From Gammaproteobacteria bacterium (GTDB lineage Bacteria; Pseudomonadota; Gammaproteobacteria; Burkholderiales; Gallionellaceae), in NCBI GenBank assembly GCA_018813765.1, contig JAHJBC010000009.1, positions 62,001-126,000 on the forward strand: a stretch of DNA of 64,000 bases. Direction: 5' to 3'. Under the pieces are notes generated by a model. The model ran no database searches, was not told the DNA's origin, and was given only the letters and a program-made list of their open reading frames with translations. The translations under genes and the position numbers were made by a program. The stretch's first letter is position 1; every line of letters starts with the position of its first letter. This document shows positions 3 through 62,093 of this stretch, piece after piece.

Positions 3-488
3 TACAAACCCAAGGCCGAGTTGGCTGCGTATCTGACCGGGGCGGTCGATGCGAACGGCATGGGTTTTGTCGGTTCCAACTATGCCCTGGTCGGTACGGG
101 AAACGCCTATCAGGAGGGTGATACCGTCTATACGTATTGCGAGACCACTTTCCGCGCCATGATAACGGGTGTTGCCAGCGCGGTGATCCTGGGCAAGCCG
201 ACCCGGTTCTACGATGGTGCGATGGTGGAATGGAGCTCGCTGTCGTATTTGGCTGACCTGAGTGGCAATACCATCCTGCCGGTCAATTCTCCGTGGCGTA
301 GCGATGTGAAATCGTTCTATCGCCCGGCAACCAGCAACACCGTCGTGAATGCGCGGACGATTACCGATGCCTATGCCAGCAGTGCAAATGCAATCGTCAA
401 TGCGGACAAGGCATACAAGACCGGCGAGGCTGCTCAGTCAGGCAGCGGCGGTGGCGGCGGAGCACCGACGAATCCCTGCGGCGGTTGA
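3..488 (+). CDS. Rhodanese-domain protein, C-terminal part (5' end outside window)
   Basis: The reading frame is already open at the left edge, so only about the last 160 residues are visible. A rhodanese-like (sulfurtransferase) C-terminal half is recognisable: a YCETTFRA loop with Cys codon at 138-140 sits where rhodaneses carry the catalytic CxxGxR loop, followed by a YDGAMVEWS segment typical of the domain's last strand and helix. The loop lacks the usual Gly, so the sulfur-transfer activity is uncertain. The tail is low complexity (Gly/Ser) and ends with a Cys-Gly-Gly. It lies just upstream of a five-haem lipoprotein and shares strand with the porin-cytochrome genes. Rhodanese-like lipoproteins occur beside porin-cytochrome clusters (for example Geobacter ExtH), so an envelope location is likely but cannot be read here. 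Confidence 0.7.
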   Translation, partial: YKPKAELAAYLTGAVDANGMGFVGSNYALVGTGNAYQEGDTVYTYCETTFRAMITGVASAVILGKPTRFYDGAMVEWSSLSYLADLSGNTILPVNSPWRSDVKSFYRPATSNTVVNARTITDAYASSANAIVNADKAYKTGEAAQSGSGGGGGAPTNPCGG

Positions 489-515
489 TGGGGGAAGCAG
501 GTTGAACCACACTCG

Positions 516-544
516 GGCCCACGTGCTGTTCGTGGGCCTTTTTT
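516..544 (+). terminator. Rho-independent terminator after the rhodanese gene
   Basis: A perfect 8-bp stem (516-523 with 531-538) and a 7-nt loop are followed directly by six T residues. It lies between the rhodanese gene and the five-haem cytochrome, whose start is only 18 bases further on. The cytochrome gene therefore depends on read-through or on a promoter overlapping the hairpin. Confidence 0.85.
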
Positions 545-561
545 CATGTTAGAAGGACGGC

Positions 562-1800
562 ATGGGCGCTTCGTTGTTTCAGCATGAGCGGCATTGGGCT
601 GCATTGGTCATTCTTCTGTTTTTGTTCCTGCTTTCCGGTTGCGGGGATAGGCAGGAGGAAGCTGCTGTCGACTTTCTGAAGCAGCACTGGGTCGACCCGA
701 TACCTCCGCAGGGCTTGCCCCCGGCGACGTTTACAGACCTCGATGCCTCGCTTTCCTCCGAGTCATGCGGGAAATGCCATGCTGCGCAATATGACAAATG
801 GAAGAGCAGTCTGCATAGCCATGCAGTCGGCCCCGGCTTGTTGTGGCAGTTCAAGTTGCTGGATCAGGCCAAGGCGAATCGTTGTATGCGGTGTCATGCC
901 CCATTGGCAGAGCAGAAGGCGCTGCTTGCCATGGAGCAAGGGTGGCAGGGAGTACCCAGCCAGCCGCCACCTGCCTACGTCAACCCCGGCCTGGGCCATG
1001 AGGGCGTCACTTGTGCGGCTTGCCATGTACGCGGACACACGCGCTTCGGGCCGGCTCCCGTCGCCCCGACACAAGGCGGCACAAGCCATGGCGGATTCGT
1101 ACCATCGTCGGCATTCGAAGACAGTCAGTTCTGTGCCTTCTGCCATCAGTTCCCGGACGATGGTCCGCGCGTGGGCGGGAAGTTGCAGGAAGATACGTAT
1201 CGGCAGTGGAAAGCGAGTCCGTTCGCTTCTGGCAAGACTTGCCAGGCATGCCACATGCCCGATCGCAAGCACCTCTGGCGCGGCATACATGATCCGGAAA
1301 TGACGCGGCAGGCCATCGAGGTGGATCTGCAGGTGGCTGTAGCGGACAACGGCAATTATGTGGCTCGCGCCCATGTGCGTAACGTCGGGGCGGGGCACGA
1401 TTTTCCGACCTATATGGTTCCCAAGGTCGATCTGATCTTCTATTTGCACGAAAGCGGGAGCAAAGCGCGCGAATTGGGGAGGCAGGTGATCGGCTGGACA
1501 GTGGATACGCAGATCACGCGCGAGATTGCCGATACGCGCATCCCCGCCGGCAAGAGCAGCGAATTCGTGCAATCGTTCGCACCACCCCCCGGAAAGAAAT
1601 GGCATGTGGAACTGGTGGTTCGGGTGCGTCCCGCCGAGCATTACGAAAGGGTGTTCCAGAACAGCCTGAATTATGCCGATCAGCTTCCTCTCGCAGCGTT
1701 GCCGCAGCTCAGGCAGGCCTTGCAAGAGGTAAAGGCTTCCGCTTATGAATTGATGCGCGTCACCGCCACCGCCCGGAAGCCTTCCGCCTCCGGCCTGTAA
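562..1800 (+). CDS. Five-haem c-type cytochrome lipoprotein
   Basis: A 412-residue protein. It has an N-terminal hydrophobic segment (about residues 12-25) ending in a lipobox LLSGC with Cys27 as the likely lipidated residue, so it should be anchored in an envelope membrane. Five CxxCH haem-binding motifs begin at about residues 69, 108, 151, 191 and 227; the C-terminal 170 residues have none and look beta-rich. The motif arrangement recalls cytochrome c554-type multihaem proteins. The ATG at 562 is preceded by AGAAGGA (551-557). With the rhodanese protein upstream and the porin downstream, a role in carrying electrons across the outer membrane is inferred. The substrate is not shown by the sequence. 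Confidence 0.85.
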   Translation: MGASLFQHERHWAALVILLFLFLLSGCGDRQEEAAVDFLKQHWVDPIPPQGLPPATFTDLDASLSSESCGKCHAAQYDKWKSSLHSHAVGPGLLWQFKLLDQAKANRCMRCHAPLAEQKALLAMEQGWQGVPSQPPPAYVNPGLGHEGVTCAACHVRGHTRFGPAPVAPTQGGTSHGGFVPSSAFEDSQFCAFCHQFPDDGPRVGGKLQEDTYRQWKASPFASGKTCQACHMPDRKHLWRGIHDPEMTRQAIEVDLQVAVADNGNYVARAHVRNVGAGHDFPTYMVPKVDLIFYLHESGSKARELGRQVIGWTVDTQITREIADTRIPAGKSSEFVQSFAPPPGKKWHVELVVRVRPAEHYERVFQNSLNYADQLPLAALPQLRQALQEVKASAYELMRVTATARKPSASGL

Positions 1801-1813
1801 TGCAAATTGAAAG

Positions 1814-1842
1814 ATTGCATTGCCCAATCGCCACAATGCAAT
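1814..1842 (+). promoter_or_regulatory. Inverted repeat, candidate enhancer site for a sigma-54 activator
   Basis: A perfect 9-bp inverted repeat, ATTGCATTG (1814-1822) and CAATGCAAT (1834-1842), separated by 11 nt. Its centre lies about 70 bp upstream of the sigma-54 -24 element at 1897. A further TTGCAT is at 1880-1885. Dyad symmetry at this distance fits an NtrC-family activator binding site; the response regulator at 5549-6979 is the obvious candidate. Confidence 0.55.
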
Positions 1843-1896
1843 TTCACCGCACCGCCTTCAATTACCTAATTGTTTGAAGTTGCATGGAATTATTTT

Positions 1897-1912
1897 TGGC
1901 ACGCAGCTTGCT
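1897..1912 (+). promoter_or_regulatory. Sigma-54 (-24/-12) promoter of the triheme cytochrome/porin operon
   Basis: TGGCAC at 1897-1902, five bases, then TTGCT at 1908-1912. This matches the RpoN consensus with correct GG-N10-GC spacing. It lies about 44 bp upstream of the small exported protein gene at 1956. An NtrC-type regulator containing the GAFTGA loop needed for sigma-54 contact is encoded 3.6 kb downstream. Confidence 0.75.
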
Positions 1913-1955
1913 CAGACAAGTTTGTCTGAACGACAGATGACAAGCCGCGAATCCG

Positions 1956-2237
1956 ATGAAACTGGTATCTGCAAGTATCGCGATAGTTCTGATTTTGCTC
2001 ACTGGCGAAGCCGGTGCGTGGGATGAGGATATCGGGCATCAAAGGCTCAAGTATCGTGCAAAGGGGTCGGTTTGCTCCTGCGCCACGGGCTTGAGCGAGG
2101 CGGAGATACAAAAGGCATGGGATGCCAGGTTTGCGAAACGAGCCGATGCGCAGTCCGGCAAAAGCAAAAAGGGGGAGGGGCATCATGAATTCCAAAATCA
2201 AGAAACAGGGGGAGGATATGAAGCGAAACCAAAGTAG
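1956..2237 (+). CDS. Small exported protein of unknown function
   Basis: A 93-residue protein not recognised as a named family. Residues 1-21 form a signal peptide (positive start, hydrophobic core, cleavage after GEAGA), so it is probably periplasmic. The mature part is short and hydrophilic, contains a CSC pair near residue 40, and ends in a Lys/Glu/Gly-rich tail. The ribosome-binding site is weak. Its 3' end overlaps the start region of the triheme cytochrome gene, and it is the first gene after the sigma-54 promoter, so it should be made with the cytochrome and the porin. A chaperone, haem-handling or metal-binding role is possible but unsupported. Confidence 0.6.
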   Translation: MKLVSASIAIVLILLTGEAGAWDEDIGHQRLKYRAKGSVCSCATGLSEAEIQKAWDARFAKRADAQSGKSKKGEGHHEFQNQETGGGYEAKPK

Positions 2238-2721
2238 TTGTGGATTACTCAAGAAGCTCTGGCGCGGCAGCGTGTTGCTGGCCGTGCTGGGGTTGAGCAT
2301 GGCGATAGTGTCCGATATTGCCGACAGAACGATTCGGAATGCCGAGCAGCAGGCGGCGACTGGCTGGGGAGGCGAGGCAGTCGTTGCGATTGCCGACCAG
2401 GCCGTTTTGTTGTCTCCGATAGCGGTGGCGAACGCGTGCGGTCTGGGAGCCTCAAGCTGTTTCAAGTGCCATAGCGGAAAGCGTGCAGCCGCACCCAACA
2501 TGGATGCCAAGGCGGCACCCTGGCATGCCCAGCACAGCAAGGCGAATAATTCCTGCGTTGGGTGCCACAAGGGGAATCCCAGAATCATGAAAGAGGATAT
2601 GTCCCACGCCAAGATGATCGCCAAGCCGTATGACAATTCGGCCGATTCCTGTGCGGTCTGTCATGCCGGGGACCTGAACAAGGTGCAATCCGCATATCAA
2701 TCTCTTGCCGGAGTAAAGTGA
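2185..2721 (+). CDS. Membrane-anchored triheme c-type cytochrome
   Basis: From the ATG at 2185 the protein has 178 residues. A hydrophobic helix at about 27-44 probably anchors it in the inner membrane. Three CxxCH motifs begin at about residues 92, 124 and 156, with several free His residues that could be distal haem ligands. A second ATG at 2218 is equally plausible; both are preceded by strong purine-rich Shine-Dalgarno stretches (GGGGGAGGGG and GGGGGAGG). An earlier in-frame start at 2122 is unlikely. The gene overlaps the small exported protein by 53 bases and is followed one base later by the porin. A quinol-to-periplasm electron carrier role is inferred from the membrane anchor and context. 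Confidence 0.8.
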   Translation: MNSKIKKQGEDMKRNQSSCGLLKKLWRGSVLLAVLGLSMAIVSDIADRTIRNAEQQAATGWGGEAVVAIADQAVLLSPIAVANACGLGASSCFKCHSGKRAAAPNMDAKAAPWHAQHSKANNSCVGCHKGNPRIMKEDMSHAKMIAKPYDNSADSCAVCHAGDLNKVQSAYQSLAGVK

Positions 2722-2722
2722 A

Positions 2723-3910
2723 ATGAAAAAAATCTCTTCCATTCGCAATGTTGCAATCGTTATGGCCTGCTGTGCAGGGATGTCTGCCGGATTCTTGTCC
2801 ACTTCTGCGATGGCCGGCCCAGCCCTGCAATTTGGCGAACAAGGATCGCTGACCTTTACCTATGCGATGCAGTACTGGATGCAACAAAAAGGTTATACAT
2901 CCGCAACAGACTCGGGGTCATCGTTCGATTCGTTCCTGCGCCGCAATCGCCTGACTTTTTCCGGACAGTTCGATGACTTCATCGGCTTCTACACCCAACT
3001 GGAGGCTGGCAACGACAGCAAGGCAGGACAGGACAACAAGAGTGTCTATTACCGGGATTCCTACATCACGCTGGATTACCGCGACGATCTGCGCTTCATT
3101 GTCGGGCGATTCAAGAACACCTTCTCGCGCGAGAACCTGGAAGCCTGTCTTGAGCCACTGACGCTGGACCGGGCCGAGGTGATCTCATATACGCCTTTTG
3201 GCGGCAGCCGTGACACCGGCGTGGCAGTCTGGGGCAACCTGATGGATGCCCAATTGCAGTACAGATTCATGATCGCCGACGGTCGCGAGGGGGACGTGGT
3301 TGCCAAGAAGAGCCCCAGGCTGACTGCACGCGTGCATTACAGCCTGTGGGAACCGGAAACGAACTACGGATACCTCGGGACCTATCTGGGTACGCAGAAA
3401 GTGCTGACCATCGGGGCTGCCTATGACAAGCAGGATAACGTTGCCTATGCCAACTATCCGTCGCGCAGCGACGTCAAGGACTACAAGGCGTGGACAGTCG
3501 ATGCATTCATGGAGTATCCGTCGGAAAGCGGGGTCTACACCCTGTCGGCTGCGACATTCAAATACGATACCGGCGGTGCATATAACCAGACTCCTGACAC
3601 GCTGCTGGCGGTCAACAGCGACTTGAAGGGTTATTACGTCAAGGGCGGATACATGATTCCCGGACGTGTCGGTGCCGGTCGGCTTCAATTCTTTGGCCGC
3701 CTTGAAAAATCCGATTACGGCGTGACGACCGGCACGGCCAACTATTACGATCAAAAGTGGAACAGCCTGGGGGCAAACTACTATCTCGACGGACAAAAGC
3801 TGAAACTCACTGCCGAGTTTGCCAAGGTAACGTTCGATACCCCGCATCCGACCGATCCTGCGCTGCAGGATTACTCGCAAGCCACGATGGGACTGCAGTT
3901 CATCTTCTGA
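2723..3910 (+). CDS. Outer-membrane porin, phosphate-selective porin O/P-like
   Basis: A 395-residue protein with a signal peptide cleaved after AMA at about residue 31. The mature chain alternates in short amphipathic strands rich in Tyr, Gly and Asp, and ends in a C-terminal Phe (LQFIF), the signal used for beta-barrel insertion. The pattern fits the OprP/OprO-like porin family. It directly follows the triheme cytochrome, so the two are co-transcribed. In porin-cytochrome conduits a barrel of this kind sheathes a multihaem cytochrome; in Geobacter the ExtI barrel next to a rhodanese-like lipoprotein is linked to extracellular electron transfer and selenite uptake. The same kind of role is inferred here. 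A plain anion porin is the alternative. Confidence 0.8.
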   Translation: MKKISSIRNVAIVMACCAGMSAGFLSTSAMAGPALQFGEQGSLTFTYAMQYWMQQKGYTSATDSGSSFDSFLRRNRLTFSGQFDDFIGFYTQLEAGNDSKAGQDNKSVYYRDSYITLDYRDDLRFIVGRFKNTFSRENLEACLEPLTLDRAEVISYTPFGGSRDTGVAVWGNLMDAQLQYRFMIADGREGDVVAKKSPRLTARVHYSLWEPETNYGYLGTYLGTQKVLTIGAAYDKQDNVAYANYPSRSDVKDYKAWTVDAFMEYPSESGVYTLSAATFKYDTGGAYNQTPDTLLAVNSDLKGYYVKGGYMIPGRVGAGRLQFFGRLEKSDYGVTTGTANYYDQKWNSLGANYYLDGQKLKLTAEFAKVTFDTPHPTDPALQDYSQATMGLQFIF

Positions 3911-4232
3911 TCGGGTTGGTGGCGAAACCGGGGAACTCGGCCCCCGGTTTCAACGAGGGCCAGGAATTACCGGGTCGTTTTGGGGCGTCTGTCGGACGCC
4001 CCATTTCGTTGGTGAGACCGGGCGAGTCGAGACTATTTCAGCTATGCTCACCCGGCAGAACTTGGGCACGTTTTGCAGATTGCGAGAATGTCACCGATGT
4101 TCAGTCTCTGCCAGCGCGCTGGTCGAAGCGTAGAATGCATTTGGACAAACTGTCGGCAAAACTCTTCAGGACGAGCGGTTGGTTTGGCAAACTGCCTGTG
4201 CAATATAGTGGACCGTCATTGATCGAGGCGTT
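3911..4232 (+). other. Intergenic region between porin and kinase genes
   Basis: 322 bases without a convincing gene. It contains a GC-rich hairpin around 3929-3950 and a terminator-like hairpin at 3982-4002. The remainder should hold the promoter of the kinase/regulator operon; I found no sigma-54 consensus in it. A possible ribosome-binding GAGG precedes the kinase start at 4233. Confidence 0.5.
3982..4010 (+). terminator. Probable terminator of the porin operon
   Basis: A perfect 8-bp stem GGGGCGTC/GACGCCCC (3982-3989 with 3995-4002), a 5-nt loop and a moderately T-rich tail. It lies 70 bases after the porin stop. The T-tract is weak, so termination may be partial. Confidence 0.6.
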
Positions 4233-5552
4233 ATGTACTGGTTGATTGGTATTTTTCTGTTTCTGGCATTCGCCTATCTCGTGGTGCGCTTATGGGCTGA
4301 ACTGAGCGTGCTCAAGCGTCTGGAAACGAGTATCCGGAATGCGCGGGAAGGTTTGCTGGAGTCGGCTGATCCCGGTCGATTGGGCTGGACTCGCGCCGGA
4401 CGCCTCATTACCGAATATAACGCCACCATCTCGACTTTGCGCTGGATGTTCAAGAACGTCGAGGATTGCCAGAATCGGTTTCACAACGAATATAACCGCA
4501 GCAACACCATCCTTCAGAGCCTGCCCGGGGCATTGCTGAGCCTGGATGAAGAGCTGCACATCACCATCGCCAATCAACAGGCAGAGTCGCTGTTTGGTGC
4601 TGAATCGGAAAAGCTGATCGGGGCCAACCTGTTCGAACTGTTGCGCCTGAACGAGCGCGACCGCGAATTGCTGCGCGATGCCTTCCTGTACAAATACCGC
4701 ATCCGCAACCAGGAGATCTCGCTCAACATGGCCGGAAAGACGCGATTTTTTTCGCTTAACCTCGGCTTCTACAACGACAAAGAATACGACATGGGCGGCG
4801 TGCTCATCCTGCAGGACATCACGGAATATCGGGAGTTGATGGAAAGCCTGGCGAGGAGCGAGAAACTGGTTGTGATGGGGCAGTTGGCAGCCGGTGTCGC
4901 GCATGAACTGAATACACCTTTGGGCAACATCCTCGGCTATTCCCAACTGGTCGAGCGCGGGGCCTCCAGCCTGCCCACCCTTTCCGGCTATGCACGGGTG
5001 ATCTCGGCGGAGGCCCAGCGTTGTTCGCGCGTCATTCAGGATCTGCTGAGTTATGCCCGCGATGATCAATGCAAAGACAATACCTGCGACATCAACGAAC
5101 TGACCGTTGAACTGATCGACGCTTTCATCACCTGCCGGCTCAAGCGTTATCTGATCGAAGTTCAGATGAACCTCGCCCCCGGTAGTCTCGTGGTTGAAGG
5201 CAGCGGCGGGCAACTTGATATCGTATTGACCAACCTGCTGAACAATTCGATCCAGGCGCTCGACAAAGTACCCGACCCGCGCATCGTGATCGAAACCAGG
5301 TTTGAAGCTCCCTATGCGATACTCAGCGTCACCGATAACGGGCCGGGCGTGCCGCCGGACGTTCGCAATCGAATATTCGATCCATTCTTTACCACCAAGC
5401 CGGTCGGGAAAGGCACCGGCCTCGGCTTATCCATCAGCAACGCCATCGTGGCCAAGCATGGCGGTTTTATCGCGTATGACGGCGATTACAGCGAGGGCGC
5501 ACGCTTTGTCATCAAATTGCTGGCAGTAGACATGAATCGGGTAAAACAATGA
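4233..5552 (+). CDS. PAS-domain sensor histidine kinase
   Basis: 439 residues. An N-terminal hydrophobic helix (residues 2-20) anchors it in the membrane, with almost no periplasmic part. A PAS-like domain follows at about 90-200, then a HisKA dimerisation helix with the phospho-acceptor His224 in AHELNTPLGNILGY. The HATPase domain has the N box (LLNNSIQAL), G1 box (DNGPGVP), F box and G2 box (GTGLGLS). The stop codon overlaps the start of the response-regulator gene (ATGA), indicating a cognate pair. With little periplasmic sequence, the signal is probably intracellular or membrane-borne, such as redox state sensed by the PAS domain. The neighbouring sigma-54 promoter at 1897 is the likely target of this system. 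Confidence 0.92.
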   Translation: MYWLIGIFLFLAFAYLVVRLWAELSVLKRLETSIRNAREGLLESADPGRLGWTRAGRLITEYNATISTLRWMFKNVEDCQNRFHNEYNRSNTILQSLPGALLSLDEELHITIANQQAESLFGAESEKLIGANLFELLRLNERDRELLRDAFLYKYRIRNQEISLNMAGKTRFFSLNLGFYNDKEYDMGGVLILQDITEYRELMESLARSEKLVVMGQLAAGVAHELNTPLGNILGYSQLVERGASSLPTLSGYARVISAEAQRCSRVIQDLLSYARDDQCKDNTCDINELTVELIDAFITCRLKRYLIEVQMNLAPGSLVVEGSGGQLDIVLTNLLNNSIQALDKVPDPRIVIETRFEAPYAILSVTDNGPGVPPDVRNRIFDPFFTTKPVGKGTGLGLSISNAIVAKHGGFIAYDGDYSEGARFVIKLLAVDMNRVKQ

Positions 5553-6979
5553 AACAGGAAAAAGATTTGATCGCCGGATACGGTGCTGAAACCGGCGACT
5601 ACAGACCCGTCATTCTGGTTACCGAAGACGACAAGAACATGCGCGAGCTGATCATCACGGTGTTGGGCGAATCGGAAATGGACTTTGAAGTCGCTGCTGC
5701 CGAGAATGCGCATGAGGCGATGGCATTCCTGGAAAATCACAGTGTGGCCGTGGTGCTGACCGACCTGCGCATGCCGGGAACCGATGGCCTGGATCTGCTG
5801 AAATTCGTCAAAGCGCGGGATGCGTCGACCCAGGTTGTGCTGGTCACCGGCTATGCGACCGTGGAATCTGCCGTTTCCGCACTCAAGGAAGGCGCATACG
5901 ACTATGTCCAGAAACCATTCGACACCGTGAAGCTGCGCTGCGTGGTCGAAAAGGCATTGGGTTTCTATCTGTTGTCGACCGAGAACGAACGCCTGAGATT
6001 GCAGCGCCGCGCTTACGAGGAAGGCGGTGAGATCATCGGCCAGTCGCAGGCGAAGGAGCGCGTGGAAAAACTCATTACTGCTGCCGCCGCCTACGATTCC
6101 AGCGTGTTTGTGTTCGGCGAGAGCGGGACGGGCAAGGAACTGGTCGCCCGCCAGATACACTTGCGAAGCAAGCGCCGGGACAAGCAATTCGTGGCGATCA
6201 ACTGCGCCGCGATCCCGGAAAACCTGATCGAAAGCGAGCTGTTCGGATTCCGCAAAGGGGCCTTTACCGGCGCAGAGCGAAGCAAGCCGGGACTCTTCGA
6301 AGTGGCCGAGGGCGGCACGATCTTCCTCGATGAGATCAACAATGCCTCGATGTCGCTCCAGGCCAAGCTTCTGCGTGTCGCCCAGGATGGCAGCTACTAT
6401 CCCATGGGCGCGACCGAGGAGATCCATGTCGATGTACGCATCATCGCCGCCTGCAATCGGCCCATCGCCGAACTGGTCGAGAAGGGGGAGTTCCGGGAAG
6501 ACCTGTTCTATCGGCTGTCGGTCATCGAGATCACCGTCCCGCCGCTGCGCGAGCGGCGCGAGGATATCGCGTTGCTGACCTATTATTTCCTGAACAAGCA
6601 CACTCTCCGGCTCGACAAACACATTACCGGCGTCAGCACCGCAGTCTTGGGCGCATTGATGCGTTACGACTGGCTGGGCAACGTGAGGGAACTGGAAAAC
6701 GTGATCCAGAGGATGATCATCCTGGCCGAATCCGAACAGATCGATATCGATGTGCTCCCGCCTCGCCTGCTGGAACAGAAGGAAGTGCGCGGGCGGGCGC
6801 TGGATTACCTGCCGCCGCAGAGCCTGGATGATGTTGAAGCCTATTTCATTCGCAAGACCCTGCGGGAGACGCGGGGTGATCGTTCCCTGGCCGCAGAGAT
6901 CCTCGGTATCGATAAATCCACCTTGTGGCGCAAGGTCAAGCGCTACAACATCGAAGATTCTGAATTCATCGAAAAATAG
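5549..6979 (+). CDS. Sigma-54-dependent response regulator (NtrC family)
   Basis: 476 residues in the classic three-domain order. The receiver domain has the phospho-acceptor Asp72 (LTDLRMPG) and conserved Thr and Lys (LVTGYA, QKPFD). The AAA+ domain has Walker A GESGTGKE at 190-197, the sigma-54 contact loop GAFTGA at 237-242 and Walker B at about 255-263. The C-terminal Fis-type helix-turn-helix is near residue 450 (LAAEILGIDKSTLWRKV). It overlaps the kinase gene by four bases. It should bind enhancer-like sites upstream of sigma-54 promoters; the only such promoter nearby is that of the triheme cytochrome/porin operon, with an inverted repeat 70 bp upstream of it. The nif sigma-54 promoter has a NifA-type site instead. 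Confidence 0.93.
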   Translation: MKQEKDLIAGYGAETGDYRPVILVTEDDKNMRELIITVLGESEMDFEVAAAENAHEAMAFLENHSVAVVLTDLRMPGTDGLDLLKFVKARDASTQVVLVTGYATVESAVSALKEGAYDYVQKPFDTVKLRCVVEKALGFYLLSTENERLRLQRRAYEEGGEIIGQSQAKERVEKLITAAAAYDSSVFVFGESGTGKELVARQIHLRSKRRDKQFVAINCAAIPENLIESELFGFRKGAFTGAERSKPGLFEVAEGGTIFLDEINNASMSLQAKLLRVAQDGSYYPMGATEEIHVDVRIIAACNRPIAELVEKGEFREDLFYRLSVIEITVPPLRERREDIALLTYYFLNKHTLRLDKHITGVSTAVLGALMRYDWLGNVRELENVIQRMIILAESEQIDIDVLPPRLLEQKEVRGRALDYLPPQSLDDVEAYFIRKTLRETRGDRSLAAEILGIDKSTLWRKVKRYNIEDSEFIEK

Positions 6980-7104: not shown

Positions 7105-7542
7105 ATGATCACCACGCTGCAACCCATCTTCGCCAGACATCAGGGCCAGGCAGGCTCGCTGCTGCCCATCCTGCACGACATCCAGCATGAACTGGGCTAT
7201 GTGCCGGAGGAGGCCGTGCCGCTGGTCGCGCAGGAACTCAACCTGTCGCGCGCCGAGGTGCATGGCGTCATCACTTATTACTCGCATTTCCGCCGCACAC
7301 CGCCGGGCAAACATGTGGTGCAGGTGTGCTGCGCCGAAGCCTGCCAGGCCAACGGCAGCGAAGCGCTGGCAGCGCATGCGGCCAAGCGTGCGCAGAAGGG
7401 TGATGTGACCATCGAGCCGGTGTATTGCCTGGGCCTCTGTTCCATCGGCCCCAACATCCAGATCGACGAGAGCGAACTGCACGCGCAAGTGACGCAGAAG
7501 AAATTCGACGCGCTCATGGATGAACTGGGAGACGCGAAATGA
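7105..7542 (+). CDS. fdsG: NAD-dependent formate dehydrogenase gamma subunit
   Basis: 145 residues, related to NuoE. It should bind one [2Fe-2S] cluster through four cysteines, seen in CCAEAC (two are ligands) and in CLGLC. The family member in soluble NAD-dependent molybdenum formate dehydrogenases passes electrons between the iron-sulfur chain and the FMN subunit. The start at 7105 is preceded by CAGGAA. It heads the order fdsG-fdsB-fdsA-fdhD-fdsD and overlaps fdsB by four bases. The gene order and the presence of the delta subunit distinguish it from complex I nuoE and from hydrogenase diaphorase subunits. The complex is cytoplasmic and oxidises formate to CO2 with reduction of NAD+. Confidence 0.92.
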   Translation: MITTLQPIFARHQGQAGSLLPILHDIQHELGYVPEEAVPLVAQELNLSRAEVHGVITYYSHFRRTPPGKHVVQVCCAEACQANGSEALAAHAAKRAQKGDVTIEPVYCLGLCSIGPNIQIDESELHAQVTQKKFDALMDELGDAK

Positions 7543-9032
7543 GCGTGACCCTCTACATCCCGGGCGATGCCGCCGCACGCGCGCTCGGCGCGGACAAGGT
7601 CGCTGCCGCCATCGCCGCGACGGCGCAACAGCAGGGCATCAAGATCAACATCGTGCGCAACGGCTCGCGCGGCCTGTTCTGGCTGGAGCCGCTGGTGGAA
7701 GTTGCCACCGCGCAAGGCCGCATCGCTTACGGCCCGGTGACGGTGGCAGATGTGCCGAAACTGTTCTCCGCGGATTTCCTGCATGGCGGCAAACATGCGC
7801 TGTGCCTGGGCGACATCGCAACGCATCCTTATCTGGCGAAGCAGCAGCGCGTCAGCCTGCGCCGTGTAGGCATCGTCGATCCGCGCTCACTGGCCGAATA
7901 TCTCGCGCACGGCGGCGGCAAGGGCTTGGCGGCGGCGCGCAAGTTAAAGTCTGCCGCCATCGTGCAACAAGTCACCGACTCCGGCCTGCGCGGTCGCGGC
8001 GGCGCGGCGTTCCCCACCGGCATCAAGTGGAAGACCGTGCTCGACACGGCCTCTGATCAGAAATACATCGTGTGCAACGCCGACGAAGGCGACTCCGGCA
8101 CCTTCTCCGACCGCATGCTGATGGAAGGTGACCCCTACTGCCTGATCGAGGGCATGGCCATCGCCGGTCTCGCGGTCGGCGCGACACGCGGCTATATATA
8201 TGTCCGCTCCGAATACCCGCATGCCATCACGGCGCTGGAATCCGCGCTGGCGAACGCGGGCGACTGGCTCGGCGATTTCCGCATCGAAGTGCGCAAGGGT
8301 GCGGGTTCCTACGTGTGCGGCGAAGAGACCGCCATGCTGGAAAGCATCGAAGGCAAGCGCGGCATCGTGCGCAGCAAGCCGCCGCTGCCCGCCGTCTCCG
8401 GCCTGTTCGGCCAGCCCACCGTCATCAACAACGTCATCACCTTCGCCAGCGTGCCGGACATCCTTGCGCAGGGTGCTGCGTTCTACAGCGAGCTCGGCGT
8501 GGGCCGTTCGCGCGGCACGCTGCCATTCCAGCTCGCGGGCAACATCAAATTTGGCGGCCTGGTCGAAGTGCCGTTCGGCAGCACGTTGCGCGAACTGTTG
8601 TACGACTACGGCGGCGGATCGCGCTCAGGCCGTCCGCTGCGCGCGGTGCAGGTGGGCGGGCCGCTGGGCGCGTACCTGCCCGAGTCGCAATTCGACACCG
8701 TGCTCGACTACGAAGCATTCTCTGCAATCGGTGCCGCACTCGGCCACGGCGGCATCGTCGCCTTCGACGACACCGTGGACATGGCCAAGCAGGCGCGCTA
8801 CGCCATGCAATTCTGCGCCAACGAATCCTGCGGCAAATGCACGCCGTGCCGCATCGGCTCCACACGCGGCGTCGAAGTCATCGACCGCATCCGCGCGGGG
8901 CACAAGGAGCAGATCCCGCTGCTGCGCAGCCTGTGCGACACCATGACCCACGGCTCCATGTGCGCGATGGGCGGCATGACGCCGTATCCGGTGCTGTCGG
9001 CGCTGGAGCATTTTGGGGAGGATTTTGAATGA
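7539..9032 (+). CDS. fdsB: NAD-dependent formate dehydrogenase beta subunit (FMN/NADH-binding)
   Basis: 497 residues, NuoF-like. An N-terminal thioredoxin-like domain of about 120 residues is fused to the flavin domain, as in FdsB proteins. The NADH/FMN-binding motif GLRGRGGAAFPTGIKW is near residue 150, the second glycine/acidic motif (CNADEGDSGTF) follows, and the [4Fe-4S] ligands are in CGKCTPCR plus a later Cys in HGSMCAMGG. It accepts electrons from formate through the FdsA/FdsG clusters and reduces NAD+ at FMN. It overlaps fdsG; a 127-bp repeat element follows before fdsA, so translation is not coupled to the next gene. Confidence 0.93.
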   Translation: MSVTLYIPGDAAARALGADKVAAAIAATAQQQGIKINIVRNGSRGLFWLEPLVEVATAQGRIAYGPVTVADVPKLFSADFLHGGKHALCLGDIATHPYLAKQQRVSLRRVGIVDPRSLAEYLAHGGGKGLAAARKLKSAAIVQQVTDSGLRGRGGAAFPTGIKWKTVLDTASDQKYIVCNADEGDSGTFSDRMLMEGDPYCLIEGMAIAGLAVGATRGYIYVRSEYPHAITALESALANAGDWLGDFRIEVRKGAGSYVCGEETAMLESIEGKRGIVRSKPPLPAVSGLFGQPTVINNVITFASVPDILAQGAAFYSELGVGRSRGTLPFQLAGNIKFGGLVEVPFGSTLRELLYDYGGGSRSGRPLRAVQVGGPLGAYLPESQFDTVLDYEAFSAIGAALGHGGIVAFDDTVDMAKQARYAMQFCANESCGKCTPCRIGSTRGVEVIDRIRAGHKEQIPLLRSLCDTMTHGSMCAMGGMTPYPVLSALEHFGEDFE

Positions 9033-9043
9033 GTCGCATTAGC

Positions 9044-9170
9044 CGTCATTCCGGCGCAGGCCGGAATCCAGATGATCAAAAATCTCCCGCGATAGCGGGA
9101 CTTCATCTCGTTTTTGTCTGCTGCGCAGGATTTTATTTTGGACTGGATTCCGGCCTGCGCCGGAATGACG
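9044..9170. repeat. 127-bp palindromic repeat element between fdsB and fdsA
   Basis: Perfect 28-bp terminal inverted repeats (9044-9071 and 9143-9170, starting CGTCATTCCGGCGCAGG) enclose 71 bases that contain a smaller hairpin. An element with identical ends and identical total length lies at 32579-32705 between nifW and nifZ. The core differs between copies. No coding sequence is inside. It looks like a REP/MITE-type non-autonomous element. Confidence 0.85.
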
Positions 9171-9195
9171 TTGCCTTTCTAACGGGATATATGGA

Positions 9196-12030
9196 ATGAA
9201 CAACCTCGACCACGGCACCCCCGCCGTCACCTCCACCCGCGAAGTCACCCTCACCATCGACGGCGTGAATGTCAGCGTCCCCGCCGGCACTTCCGTCATG
9301 CGCGCCGCCGTGAAGGCGGGCGTGATGATCCCCAAACTCTGCGCCACCGATTCGCTCGCGCCGTTCGGCTCCTGCCGCCTGTGCCTGGTCGAGGTCGAAG
9401 GCCGTCGCGGTTATCCGTCTTCCTGCACCACGCCTGCCGAAGCGGGCATGCAGGTGAAGACGCAGACGCCCAAGCTCGCCGAGCTGCGCCGCAATGTGAT
9501 GGAGCTCTACATCTCCGACCATCCGCTCGACTGCCTCACCTGCGCGGCCAGCGGCGATTGCGAATTGCAGAGCATGGCGGCCGCGGTGGGCCTGCGCGAA
9601 GTGCGCTATGGCAACCAAGGCGCGAACCATTTCGCCGCCGCGAAGAAAGACATCTCCAATCCCTACTTCATCCACAACCCCGCCAAGTGCATCGTGTGCA
9701 ACCGCTGCGTGCGCGCCTGCGAAGAGCAGCAGGGCACCTTCGCGCTGACCATCGGCGGGCGCGGTTTCGATTCGCGCGTGACGGCGGGGCAGGGCGAGTC
9801 GTTCATGGATTCCGATTGCGTCTCCTGCGGCGCCTGCGTCAACGCCTGCCCCACGGCGGCGCTGATCGAGAAGAGCGCGGTGAAGCTGGGCAGCGCAGAT
9901 AAAGCAGTGGTCACCACCTGCGCCTATTGCGGCGTCGGTTGCGGTTTCCAGGTCGAGATGAAGGGCGCGCAGGTCGTGCGCATGACGCCGTGGAAGGACG
10001 GCCGTGCCAACGAAGGCCACGCCTGCGTCAAGGGCCGCTTCGCCTGGGGCTATGCCACGCACAAGGACCGCATCACCAAGCCGATGATCCGCGCGAAGAC
10101 CAGCGACCCGTGGCGCGAAGTGTCGTGGGACGAGGCGTTCGCTTACGCGGCCAAGGAATTCCGCCGCATCCAGGACAAGCACGGCAAGAATGCCGTCGGC
10201 GCGCTGGTCTCCAGCCGCTGCACCAACGAGGAAGATTATCTGGTGCAGAAGCTGGTGCGCGCCGCCTTCGGCAACAACAACGTCGATACCTGCGCGCGCG
10301 TGTGCCATGCGCCCACCGGCTACGGCCTCGGCCAGACGCTGGGCACCTCGGCGGGTACGCAGACCTTCAAGTCGGTGGAGAAGGCCGACGTGATCATGAT
10401 CATCGGCTCCAACCCCAGCGAAGGCCATCCGGTGGTCGGCTCGCGCCTCAAGCGCCGCGTGCGCGAAGGCGCCAAGCTCATCGTCATCGATCCGCGCGAG
10501 ATCGACATGGTGACCGCACCCCATGCGCGCGCCACGCATCACCTCAAGCTGCGCCCCGGCACCAACGTCGCCATGCTTTCCGCGCTCGCGCATGTGATCG
10601 TCACCGAAGGACTGATGAACCAGCAGTTCATCGCCGAGCGTTGCGAGAAGCAGGCGTTCGACGACTGGCGCGAATTCGCCGCGCGTCCGGCCAATTCGCC
10701 CGAGGCGATGGAAGCCGTCACCGGCGTGCCCGCTGCCGACGTGCGCGCGGCCGCGCGCCTCTACGCCACCGGCGGCAACGCCGCCATTTTCTACGGTCTG
10801 GGCGTCACCGAACATTCGCAAGGTTCGACCGCGGTGATCGCCATCGCCAACCTCGCCATGGCCACCGGCAACGTGGGGCGCGAAGGTGTGGGCGTGAACC
10901 CGCTGCGCGGGCAGAACAACGTGCAGGGTTCCTGCGACATGGGCGGCTTCCCCGACATCTATCCCGGCTATCGCCATGTGTCCGACGCCGCCACGCGCGA
11001 GCTGTTCGAAAAGGCATGGAGCGTGAACCTGCAAGCCGACCCCGGCCTGCGCATCCCCAACATGCTGGAAGCCGCGCTGGACGGTTCCTTCAAGGGACTC
11101 TACTGCCAGGGCGAAGACCCGGCGCAGTCCGACCCCAACACGCAGCATGTGCAGGCCGCGCTCTCGGCCATGGAATGTGTGGTGGTGCAGGACCTGTTCC
11201 TCAACGAGACCGCAAAATACGCGCATGTGTTCCTGCCCGGCGCATCCTTCCTGGAAAAAGACGGCACCTTCACCAACGGCGAGCGCCGCATCTCGCGCGT
11301 GCGCAAAGTCATGCAACCGCTGGCGGGCAAGGCCGATTGGGAAGTGACCATGGGCCTGGCTGAAGCGCTTGGCTATCCGATGCGCTACGAACACCCGTCG
11401 CAGATCATGGACGAGATCGCGCGCCTCACGCCCACCTTCGCCGGCGTCAGCTATGACAAGCTTGAGCAGATGGGCAGCGTGCAATGGCCGTGCAACGACA
11501 AGAAGCCGCAAGGCACGCCGCTCATGCATGTGGACGCATTCGTGCGCGGCAAGGGCCGCTTCTTCAACACCCAATACGTGCCCACCGACGAAAAGGTCAC
11601 GCCGCGCTTCCCGTTGCTGCTCACCACCGGCCGCATCCTGTCGCAATACAACGTCGGCGCGCAGACGCGGCGCACCGAGAACGTCCAGTTCTACGGCGAA
11701 GACGTACTGGAGATCCACCCGCACGACGCCGAAGAGCGCGGCATCAAGCAGGGCGACTGGGTCGGCATCCAGTCGCGCGCAGGCGACACCGTGCTGCGCG
11801 CCACCGTCACCGAGCGCGTGCAACCCGGCGTCGTTTACACCACCTTCCACTTCCCCGAATCCGGCGCCAACGTCATCACCACCGACAACTCCGACTGGGC
11901 CACCAACTGCCCCGAGTACAAAGTCACCGCGGTGCAACTGGTGAAAGTGGAAAAACCATCGGCCTGGCAACAGCGCAATGCGCGCGAGGATGAGAAGCAG
12001 AAGAGGTTGCTGGCGGGTGCGAAGCATTAA
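9196..12030 (+). CDS. fdsA: NAD-dependent formate dehydrogenase alpha subunit (molybdopterin)
   Basis: 944 residues. The N-terminal NuoG-like part carries a [2Fe-2S] site (Cys49, 60, 63, 77), a His/Cys [4Fe-4S] site (His109, Cys113, 116, 122) and two ferredoxin-like [4Fe-4S] clusters (about 165-175 and 208-218). The molybdopterin domain begins with a CAYCGVGC [4Fe-4S] motif at 242. The predicted Mo ligand is Cys in RVCHAPTGYG, so this is the cysteine rather than the selenocysteine type. The C-terminal domain is the usual molybdopterin dinucleotide-binding fold. It oxidises formate in the cytoplasm. The start at 9196 follows a purine-poor leader; an ATG five bases earlier meets a stop at once. 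Confidence 0.94.
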   Translation: MNNLDHGTPAVTSTREVTLTIDGVNVSVPAGTSVMRAAVKAGVMIPKLCATDSLAPFGSCRLCLVEVEGRRGYPSSCTTPAEAGMQVKTQTPKLAELRRNVMELYISDHPLDCLTCAASGDCELQSMAAAVGLREVRYGNQGANHFAAAKKDISNPYFIHNPAKCIVCNRCVRACEEQQGTFALTIGGRGFDSRVTAGQGESFMDSDCVSCGACVNACPTAALIEKSAVKLGSADKAVVTTCAYCGVGCGFQVEMKGAQVVRMTPWKDGRANEGHACVKGRFAWGYATHKDRITKPMIRAKTSDPWREVSWDEAFAYAAKEFRRIQDKHGKNAVGALVSSRCTNEEDYLVQKLVRAAFGNNNVDTCARVCHAPTGYGLGQTLGTSAGTQTFKSVEKADVIMIIGSNPSEGHPVVGSRLKRRVREGAKLIVIDPREIDMVTAPHARATHHLKLRPGTNVAMLSALAHVIVTEGLMNQQFIAERCEKQAFDDWREFAARPANSPEAMEAVTGVPAADVRAAARLYATGGNAAIFYGLGVTEHSQGSTAVIAIANLAMATGNVGREGVGVNPLRGQNNVQGSCDMGGFPDIYPGYRHVSDAATRELFEKAWSVNLQADPGLRIPNMLEAALDGSFKGLYCQGEDPAQSDPNTQHVQAALSAMECVVVQDLFLNETAKYAHVFLPGASFLEKDGTFTNGERRISRVRKVMQPLAGKADWEVTMGLAEALGYPMRYEHPSQIMDEIARLTPTFAGVSYDKLEQMGSVQWPCNDKKPQGTPLMHVDAFVRGKGRFFNTQYVPTDEKVTPRFPLLLTTGRILSQYNVGAQTRRTENVQFYGEDVLEIHPHDAEERGIKQGDWVGIQSRAGDTVLRATVTERVQPGVVYTTFHFPESGANVITTDNSDWATNCPEYKVTAVQLVKVEKPSAWQQRNAREDEKQKRLLAGAKH

Positions 12031-27104: not shown

Positions 27105-27120
27105 TGGCACAGGGCTTGCA
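27105..27120 (+). promoter_or_regulatory. Sigma-54 promoter of the nif accessory operon
   Basis: TGGCAC (27105-27110), five bases, TTGCA (27116-27120): consensus RpoN promoter with correct spacing, 38 bases upstream of the first gene. With the NifA site it predicts expression under nitrogen-fixing conditions. Confidence 0.85.
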
Positions 27121-60206: not shown

Positions 60207-62093
60207 ATGTTCGATTTCGTGCATGAGAAGAAACGAATAGTGCAGGTCGTGCTGGCGCTGATCATTTTGCCGTTCGCTTTCTGGGGAGTGGATTCCTATC
60301 GCAATGCCGGAGGTCCGGCAGCGCTGGCCAAGGTCAACGGCGAGGATATCGGGCAACTGGAATTCGAGAATGCACTGGATCAGCAGCGTCAGCGCATACG
60401 CGAGTTGGCTGGAGATGCATTCGATCCGGCCATGTTCGACCGGCCGGAGGTCAAGTATTCGGTGCTGGAGGGGCTGGTTACTCGCCACCTGATGTTGTCC
60501 GAGGCAAGAAGTGTCAATCTGATACCTGGGGACGCGCAGATCGCCCAGGTTCTGCTCAGCATCGACGAGTTCAGGGTCGACGGGAGATTCGACAAGCAGC
60601 GATACCTTGCTGCGTTGAACGAACGCGGCATGAACCAGTTCCAGTTTGAATCGCAACTGGGTCAGGACATCGCATTGCAGCGTTTGGCGGACGCTTACAC
60701 GCAAAACGGTTATGCATCCGACACGGTGGTGGAAAGACTGATTCGGCTGAATGAACAGCAACGGGTAGTCTCGGTGATGAAGCTGGATGCAGACCGTTTC
60801 GTCGGGCAGGCGCGCGTAAGCGATGCCGATATCAGCGCCTATTATGAGCAGCATGCTGCAGAGTTCCAGTTGCCGGAGCGCGCGAATGTCGAATATGTAC
60901 TGTTCTCGGCGGATACGCTGATGCCATCGATCTCGGTTTCGGATGCCGAGATCAAACAATATTACGACGACCATATCTCTGAATTCGGTACGCAGGAGCA
61001 ACGCCAGGCGGCGCATATCCTGATCGCTGTGTCCAGGCAGGCGCCTGAAGCCGAGAAGCAGGAGGCAAAAGCCAAAGCCGTGCAGGTTTTACAGCAAGTG
61101 AAGCAGGCGCCGGCCAATTTCGCGGCATTGGCCAAGCAGCATTCGCAGGATCCGGGTTCGGCTGCCAGCGGCGGCGATCTGGGGATGTTCGGTCGTGGCG
61201 CGATGATGAAGCCGTTCGATGACAGCGTGTTCAGTTTGAAGAAGGGTGAAGTGAGCGAACTGGTGGAGTCTGACTACGGTTTCCATATCATCAAATTGCT
61301 GGCGATCAAACCGGCTGAACTTCAGCCGTTGGCGGCAGTGCGCGGAATGATCGGGCAGCGCCTGAGATCGCAGCATGCGGCTGACAGATTTGCCGAATTG
61401 GCCGAAAAGTTCAACGACACCGTCTATGAGCAAAGCGATACGCTGAAGCCAGCCGCCGAACTTGCCAAGGTAGCCATAAAGCGCGGTGTGTGGTTAAGCA
61501 AGGGGCAACCAGCGTCCGAGCCATGGACAGACAAGGTATTGCAGGCGGTATTTTCGGACGAGGCGTTGAAGGACAAGCGCAACACTGAAGCTATCGAAGT
61601 CGCACCCAATACCCTGCTCGCTGCCCGCGTTGTGGAATACAAGCCCGCGAGCTCGCGTCCGTTGGCAGAGGTCGCATCGCTCATTCGTGGGCAGTTGCAG
61701 CGTATGCAAGCGTCGGAGATGGCGGTGAAGCAGGGGGCGACTCTGCTGGAACAGCTTCAGCGCGGCGAGAAGGTCAAGCCCGCTTGGCAGGCGGCGCAAA
61801 GCATTTCGCGCAGCCAGCATGCCGGTATCGATCCTGCGCTGGTTCAGGCCGTGTTCAGGGCAGGAACGGGCAAGCTTCCAGCTTATGTTGGCATTGAAAA
61901 TGCGCAGGTTGGATATGCGCTGGCGCGCATCGAGGCGGTCAGGGAGATCGACTCCATCGATGCGGGCAAACGCCTTCGCTATGCACAGCAGATCAGGCAG
62001 ATGACCGGCGGTGAGTTGTTGCAGGCCCATTTGCAGGATGCGAAAAAGAGCGCTGACATCACGATCAAGCCTTTTGCCGCGGACGCAAGATAG
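60207..62093 (+). CDS. ppiD: Periplasmic folding factor PpiD (SurA-like)
   Basis: 628 residues. A single N-terminal membrane helix (about 11-30: RIVQVVLALIILPFAFWGVDSY) anchors it on the periplasmic side. A SurA_N-like helical part follows (about 35-190), then a parvulin domain near residue 265 (QAAHILIAVSRQAPEAEKQ, GGDLGMFGRGAMMKPFDDSVF). It helps outer-membrane and secreted proteins fold, which suits the porin locus here. The tail ends with a basic segment. Confidence 0.92.
   Translation: MFDFVHEKKRIVQVVLALIILPFAFWGVDSYRNAGGPAALAKVNGEDIGQLEFENALDQQRQRIRELAGDAFDPAMFDRPEVKYSVLEGLVTRHLMLSEARSVNLIPGDAQIAQVLLSIDEFRVDGRFDKQRYLAALNERGMNQFQFESQLGQDIALQRLADAYTQNGYASDTVVERLIRLNEQQRVVSVMKLDADRFVGQARVSDADISAYYEQHAAEFQLPERANVEYVLFSADTLMPSISVSDAEIKQYYDDHISEFGTQEQRQAAHILIAVSRQAPEAEKQEAKAKAVQVLQQVKQAPANFAALAKQHSQDPGSAASGGDLGMFGRGAMMKPFDDSVFSLKKGEVSELVESDYGFHIIKLLAIKPAELQPLAAVRGMIGQRLRSQHAADRFAELAEKFNDTVYEQSDTLKPAAELAKVAIKRGVWLSKGQPASEPWTDKVLQAVFSDEALKDKRNTEAIEVAPNTLLAARVVEYKPASSRPLAEVASLIRGQLQRMQASEMAVKQGATLLEQLQRGEKVKPAWQAAQSISRSQHAGIDPALVQAVFRAGTGKLPAYVGIENAQVGYALARIEAVREIDSIDAGKRLRYAQQIRQMTGGELLQAHLQDAKKSADITIKPFAADAR

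Follow-up and report, generated by a model that had tools for sequence, protein, structure and literature searches.

The subject of this analysis is a 13-gene cluster at the left end of a 64,000-nucleotide stretch of DNA (the window; forward-strand positions 62,001 to 126,000 of contig JAHJBC010000009.1, GenBank assembly GCA_018813765.1) from a bacterium of the Gallionellaceae. The window begins within the rhodanese gene and so splits the cluster: window positions 3-6979 hold about half of it, and the other half lies just beyond the left end, in 20 kb around that end (L002, whose coordinates are those of the window plus 16000). An earlier note, made from the window sequence without database searches, had read in order a rhodanese-domain protein, a five-haem lipoprotein, a small exported protein, an inner-membrane triheme cytochrome, an outer-membrane porin, a histidine kinase, and a sigma-54 activator; all seven are present in that order on the forward strand, and the sulfur-transfer half was overlooked because it lies outside the window. 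Conservation was followed through 17 loci (the window's own, L003-L009, and L048-L056), which, like their 27 promoters, are related by descent, so that the counts given below are not independent trials; seven Geobacter-type loci (L010, L011, L079-L082, and L084) and several loci of Desulfobacterota were compared with them.

Genes of the cluster

The porin (2723-3910) scores 344.6 bits over residues 12-395 against NF040900, the NCBIfam model for ExtI (curated cut-off 150), and is 42% identical to the Geobacter-group sequences of L010 and L011, so that the kinship with Geobacter ext genes proposed in the earlier note is borne out for the porin. AlphaFold models ExtI with 16 long strands (mean pLDDT 67.8), and the top Foldseek match of the model is OprP (2o4v; E 1.2e-14; TM 0.66/0.64, 0.66 by query); with moderate confidence, the modelled ExtI appears to be a 16-strand OprP-like porin rather than a conduit barrel. 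A phosphate porin was considered and rejected: the fold is OprP-like, yet the neighbours are not phosphate genes, and ExtI is reported to show no response to phosphate (PMC5877670). Cys142, in a loop between strands 5 and 6 where model confidence is low, is kept in all 16 relatives and in 7/7 Geobacter-type loci; a cysteine occupies a like position in L083 and L085 of Desulfobacterota, and several distant porins lack it. As a separate observation, the frame of an ExtI-family porin in L088 (9906-11291; G1029:C109:29942-31231) is interrupted by one in-frame TGA.

The ExtH-like rhodanese lipoprotein is represented in the window by its C-terminal third (3-488); the full gene (L002:15007-16488, window -993 to 488) encodes 493 amino acid residues. 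Against Pfam Rhodanese (cut-off 22.2) the fragment reaches 16.7 bits and the full gene 22.3, and against NF040901 the full protein scores 87.5 bits (cut-off 200), which leaves it outside ExtH as NCBIfam draws that family. The protein carries a catalytic-type CETTFR motif and a glycine-rich tail ending in NPCGG; a cysteine lies within the last seven residues in 15/15 sequences, mostly as NPCGG after a glycine-rich stretch. In Geobacter-type ExtH the last residue is cysteine (7/7) but the CxxxxR rhodanese motif is missing, and the tail differs in L083 and L085. The C-terminal motif of SoxY, GGCGG, resembles this tail.

The pentaheme lipoprotein (562-1800; five CXXCH) is a relative of ExtKL and MccSep. 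It aligns along its whole length with Geobacter ExtKL read through TGA, but scores 39.6 bits against NF040886 (cut-off 250) and so is not an ExtKL by that model; the ExtKL selenocysteine, present in 5/5 Geobacter-type rows, is Met or Leu in 15/15 rows here (Met in the window protein), and the match in the PDB is MccSep (9wt8, E 8.5e-06). PADLOC gave no match for ExtH or the pentaheme protein, and a defence-system reading was dropped. The small exported protein (1956-2237) has a CxC motif in 12/12 aligned sequences; its profile found nothing in Geobacter-type loci, and by eye it is unlike ExtJ, to which we do not assign it. The triheme cytochrome (2218-2721, its start set by comparison with relatives) is predicted to be anchored in the inner membrane by one N-terminal hydrophobic segment and has an extra invariant cysteine (C85, NACGLGASSCFKCH) in 16/16 sequences. 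The histidine kinase (4233-5552) is composed of a single hydrophobic segment near the N-terminus, seen by eye, and PAS, HisKA, and HATPase domains, with Cys79, 280, 285, and 301 kept in 15/15 aligned sequences, and the NtrC-type response regulator (5549-6979) of a receiver, an AAA+ domain with GAFTGA, and a Fis-type helix-turn-helix.

Past the window edge, after a tRNA pair, the order is tusA1-yedE-tusA2-dsrE, two genes for proteins of 85 and 62 residues, and then full extH. TusA1 has 104 residues; the YedE/TsuA-type transporter (485 residues; Pfam Sulf_transp, 158.8 bits) matches TsuA thiosulfate-uptake structures; TusA2 (83 residues) scores 58.3 bits with Pfam TusA; and the DsrE-like protein (103 residues) scores 18.5 bits with Pfam, under the cut-off of 22.7. 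The adjacent yedE, tusA, dsrE-like, and two small conserved genes correspond in content and order to what is called the YTD cluster in sulfur disproportionators (PMC8780430, PMC9751629), from which the present cluster differs in having an extra tusA1 in front and in being joined to an outer-membrane and cytochrome module and a sigma-54 circuit. The same gene set has been named yeeE-tusA-DsrEFH type II and described as a sulfur-oxidation transferase and a poor marker of disproportionation (PMC13293266, 2026), and a DsrEFH-like complex was likewise found in PMC13047784. Excerpts of PMC12998232 place the complete YTD cluster, among the strains of that study, only in Desulfobacterota and Nitrospirota, and YeeE, rhodanese, and TusA are expressed in Desulfurivibrio during sulfide oxidation (PMC12545173). 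A dsrE profile built from this locus matches 50/297 Desulfobacterota genomes; of 20 such loci fetched, tusA adjoins in 13 and yedE in 9.

Promoters and paired upstream elements

Each half of the cluster carries a sigma-54 promoter. That in the window, TGGCACGCAGCTTGCT at 1897-1912, is a full match to the consensus and lies before the gene of the small exported protein and thus in front of the latter cytochrome genes, as the earlier note had proposed; the other, outside the window, precedes tusA1. Both recur across loci more often than chance would give: within 260 bp behind the pentaheme gene, 12/16 loci have a site scoring at least 21.5 (random mean 0.43, maximum 3 in 300 draws of 16), and upstream of tusA1, 11/11 do (random mean 0.32, maximum 3). 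In the four loci below 21.5 in the first region (L004, L005, L050, and L054) the sites are weaker, or, in the case of L050, at a greater distance; of the 16 cytochrome promoters considered below, two (L005 and L054) were placed by hand and one (L050) was taken from a wider scan.

Upstream of these promoters lie paired TGCA elements within TTGCAA-like palindromes. In the window they are at 1801-1804 and 1837-1840, centred at -96 and -60 from the -24 box; the pair falls at -96 to -99 and -60 to -63 in 16/16 cytochrome promoters, and is spaced by 39-40 bp in 11/11 tusA1 promoters, at -106/-107 and -66 to -68 in nine and at -85/-45 in the remaining two (L008 and L009). TTGCA or TGCAA words number 90 in 25 upstream regions, versus 5.7 expected and a maximum of 16 in 500 random draws. 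Paired upstream sites are the geometry of an NtrC-type enhancer, and it is on this ground very likely that the neighbouring regulator binds the TGCA pairs. The remaining parts of an NtrC-type system are likewise in place, namely a receiver, a GAFTGA-bearing AAA+ domain, a Fis helix-turn-helix, a partner kinase, a GG-N10-GC promoter with upstream activator sites, and rpoN, which is over cut-off in 17/17 carriers.

A lone sigma-54 motif proves little, since the window's own genome has 31 sigma-54-like sites versus 10 for the reversed pattern; the link to a two-component sigma-54 circuit, which the earlier note had drawn from one motif, is far stronger when drawn from promoters and elements across loci. 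A composite promoter pattern has 12 matches in the same genome, and by eye just one of them, at the tusA1 promoter, falls on a sigma-54 site; because this pattern misses the cytochrome promoter, whose distal element lacks the second T, it may pass over further targets as well. Two further observations concern these sites: an inverted repeat, CAGACAA-GT-TTGTCTG, lies directly behind the -12 box (1911-1926) and by eye is not kept in relatives, and another sigma-54-like site, TGGCACAGGGCTTGCA, is found at window 27105-27120 (C2:89105-89120). Terminator-like hairpins were also noted: one 3′ of extI (3981-4003), from a search that gave 2 such sites where shuffles lead one to expect 2.6, and one with a run of T residues between the extH and pentaheme genes (515-544; folded region 495-560, z only -1.24), given which the pentaheme gene may be transcribed by read-through or from its own promoter.

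Distribution of the cluster

The gene-neighbourhood survey called for in the earlier note shows that the genes stay together in relatives. All 13 are found in 10/17 loci; L007, L048, L051, and L056 are cut by contig ends, and in L050, L052, and L055 one to three members were not found in the same search. Kinase and sigma-54 regulator follow extI in 16/17 loci; in L051, at a contig start, neither was found behind extI. L003-L009 come from Hydrogenophilus, Betaproteobacteria SCN1, Thiobacillus, Hydrogenophilaceae, and two metagenome-assembled genomes of Pseudomonadota/Proteobacteria. Among 12 loci the parts are 0.37 to 0.85 identical in sequence, and their patterns of pairwise identity correlate, from 0.40 (extH with the response regulator) to 0.86 (extI with the histidine kinase), the signal from the regulator being weaker than the rest.

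Distribution is nonetheless patchy: ExtI is over cut-off in 9/369 genomes of the class, 2/100 of the family, 2/27 of the same genus (own included), and 1/398 of a phylum draw, the one being the window's own genome; in Desulfobacterota it is over cut-off in 14/297. Immediately before the cluster lie tRNA-Ser and tRNA-Arg (L002:11564-11761, window -4436 to -4239), and this tRNA pair together with the rarity of the cluster in its own genus gives it the look of an acquired island. On its other side, window 7105-12030 contains NAD-linked formate dehydrogenase-like genes of the fdsGBA type, named by eye from translations.

In the Desulfobacterota loci L083 and L085, the order is TusA-kinase-regulator-sigma-54 site-rhodanese lipoprotein (extH)-extI. 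Specifically, i) the TusA proteins score 46.3 and 43.3 bits with Pfam; ii) the sigma-54 site before extH is the best of the whole locus in both (29.5 in L083 and 27.5 in L085), and each has a single TTGCAA element centred at -67; iii) the L085 lipoprotein has four rhodanese stretches, and a YedE-type gene lies in front; iv) no open reading frame with three or more CXXCH occurs within either 20-kb stretch; and v) both genomes have a tusA-dsrE-small-small cluster elsewhere (L125 and L127). As a control, 13/13 Desulfobacterota YTD clusters scanned had no such promoter or element (best score 16.5). In two further Desulfobacterota loci, L092 and L095, distant ExtI-family porins adjoin tusA and a YedE-type gene, and no kinase or regulator was matched.

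Probable sulfur acquisition and its alternatives

On balance we consider it probable, though by no means assured, that the cluster encodes a trans-envelope system for acquiring sulfane sulfur, with its own two-component switch. Sulfurtransferases, transporter, rhodanese, envelope cysteines, an excess of Dsr among carriers, and the cytochrome-free version in Desulfobacterota together point to sulfur acquisition as the common core, to which cytochromes were added. We infer the substrate, the direction of sulfur and electrons, and the signal as follows. A compound of reduced sulfur, be it polysulfide, soluble sulfur, or thiosulfate, would cross the outer membrane through ExtI; ExtH would receive the sulfur as a persulfide, probably on the Cys-Gly-Gly of a flexible arm at its C-terminus; electrons would be drawn off during sulfur loading by the pentaheme lipoprotein and by the triheme protein anchored in the membrane; the CxC peptide may pass the sulfur onward; YedE would move it across the inner membrane, behind which TusA and the DsrE-type proteins would take it over and, in most carriers, could feed reverse Dsr; and the kinase, perhaps by means of its conserved cysteines, would sense the pathway's state, whereupon its partner regulator would bind the paired TGCA elements and open both sigma-54 promoters. 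The conserved cysteines of ExtI, the ExtH tail, the CxC peptide, and the triheme protein would thus line the proposed path. The loading step is modelled on SoxXA, which takes electrons as SoxYZ is loaded with thiosulfate sulfur; the likeness, a cysteine in a flexible glycine-rich C-terminus acting as sulfur carrier and loaded oxidatively by c-type cytochromes, is functional, ExtH has a rhodanese domain, and we claim no homology.

The excess of Dsr is suggestive: dsrA is over cut-off in 13/17 carriers, the window's genome included, and a fourteenth has fragments, compared with 112/369 genomes of the class, within which draw 6/9 carriers have it (relatedness uncorrected). No dsrA was found in three of the 17 (G236, G026, and G337, the last 75% complete), which indicates that Dsr is not the sole sulfur sink and is one of several points that weigh against sulfur acquisition. 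The others are that ExtH and the pentaheme protein both fall under their NCBIfam cut-offs; that dsrE and the two small genes are below or outside Pfam families; that the structure model of ExtH (pLDDT 37) is unusable, so that nothing was drawn from it and the swinging arm is proposed from sequence; that an ordinary cytochrome reading requires no cysteine relay; that no YedE, TusA, kinase, or regulator was found beside extI in the seven Geobacter-type loci, and a YedE search had no match in both Geobacter genomes tested; and that in Geobacter the homologue has an effect on the reduction of selenite and tellurite (PMC5877670), and the cluster one on the reduction of metals (PMC6148476). We wish to stress that the proposal is computational throughout.

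The cytochromes could instead work in the opposite direction, supplying sulfur or polysulfide with electrons, on the outer membrane or outside it, as part of sulfur respiration or disproportionation, with YedE-TusA-DsrE serving the oxidised branch. Multihaem chains can run both ways, but the carriers include Hydrogenophilus, Thiobacillus, and relatives, which we take to be sulfur oxidisers. The YTD cluster, which the upstream half resembles, is upregulated during thiosulfate disproportionation (PMC9751629), whereas PMC13293266 assigns the same genes, as yeeE-tusA-DsrEFH type II, to sulfur oxidation; weighing these, we regard the opposite direction as unlikely.

A system for the uptake and reduction of selenite or tellurite, like that proposed for Geobacter ext, in which the sulfurtransferases would handle selenium, seems somewhat less probable again. 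The model whose cut-off ExtI exceeds takes its name from selenite/tellurite reduction, and loss of extI lowers the reduction of both oxyanions in Geobacter (PMC5877670). YedE/YedF-like proteins also bear selenium names in NCBIfam, but all matches to the selenium-named models, for TusA as for YedE/YedF-like proteins, are below cut-off; the ExtKL selenocysteine is replaced; no ExtM-, ExtN-, or ExtS-like gene is found at the cluster; and the excess of Dsr speaks for sulfur.

The porin-cytochrome conduit of the earlier note, for Fe(II), electrodes, or Fe(III), has little left in its favour beyond the consecutive genes for a porin, a multihaem lipoprotein, and a triheme protein of the inner membrane, and the observation in Geobacter that extHIJKL affects the reduction of Fe(III) and Mn(IV) (PMC6148476). 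The cluster encodes merely five plus three haems and no large surface cytochrome, and the core is retained without cytochromes in L083 and L085. MtrB-type barrels are larger than 16 strands. Those of MtoB and PioB have 24-32 (PMC5566968), so that the ExtI model, at its pLDDT of 67.8, falls short of a barrel of at least 24 strands enclosing a multihaem cytochrome; this model and the cytochrome-free loci make a conduit very improbable. The earlier note had itself named a plain phosphate/anion porin and genes not kept together as grounds for giving up its interpretation; the first nearly describes the modelled fold, the second is contradicted by the synteny. Its interpretation thus survives in part, ext kinship, synteny, and the sigma-54 circuit having held up and electron conduit and Fe(II) uptake not.

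Known systems each share a part of the cluster. Geobacter extHIJKL(MNOPQS) has the ExtI porin, the rhodanese-family lipoprotein with its glycine-rich, Cys-ending tail, and the pentaheme protein aligned full-length; the present cluster, in contrast, lacks selenocysteine and ExtM/N/S, has a small protein that cannot be recognised as ExtJ, and adds YedE/TusA/DsrE genes, a triheme protein, and a two-component system of the sigma-54 kind, the regulator at Geobacter ext being of the LysR type (PMC6148476). MtrCAB, MtoAB, PCC3, and PCC4 likewise combine neighbouring genes for an outer-membrane barrel and for multihaem cytochromes, but differ from the 16-strand porin model, few haems, and sulfur genes found here; the other porin-cytochrome types of iron oxidisers in the excerpts of PMC10734462 and PMC5566968 do not match this cluster. 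In sulfur-disproportionating Desulfurivibrio dismutans, a porin lies beside periplasmic sulfurtransferases and YeeE/YedE, and polysulfide import has been suggested for it (PMC12142623); L083 and L085 are similar, with TusA, kinase, and regulator in addition and no cytochromes, and the excerpts of that paper mention neither a sigma-54 circuit nor ExtI kinship. Excerpts of PMC5877670 list distant ExtI homologues in sulfur bacteria, and PMC6148476, which describes extHIJKL as a putative conduit, mentions the sulfur links of rhodaneses. In the literature searched, where subscription papers were sparse, a link of ExtHI, YTD, and sigma-54 was not found; of the connections drawn here, the one met there is that of a porin with YeeE and sulfurtransferases in D. 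dismutans.

A wider proposal, which we offer tentatively and think possible rather than probable, is that ExtH and ExtI form a device of general use for handling sulfane sulfur (and, in Geobacter, selenium) at the outer membrane, made up of a porin with a constriction-loop cysteine and a lipoprotein whose SoxY-like swinging cysteine arm would be loaded oxidatively by multihaem cytochromes in that membrane; that together with YedE-TusA-DsrE it would form a complete route from outside to cytoplasm; that it would be governed by a sulfur-sensing, two-promoter sigma-54 regulon whose operator has been kept in two phyla; and that the selenite cluster of Geobacter would have branched off from it later.

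To our knowledge, the route by which reduced, poorly soluble sulfur crosses the outer membrane and reaches cytoplasmic Dsr is not settled. According to excerpts of PMC13293266, the substrate specificity of yeeE-tusA-DsrEFH type II is likely determined by an uptake system, which they leave open; the cluster described here is a candidate for that uptake system, and its genes, promoters, operators, and cysteines can be named. It would provide a new frame for Geobacter ext genes, which have so far been classed with selenite reduction or with electron conduits, and would give sulfur bacteria a defined sigma-54 regulon.

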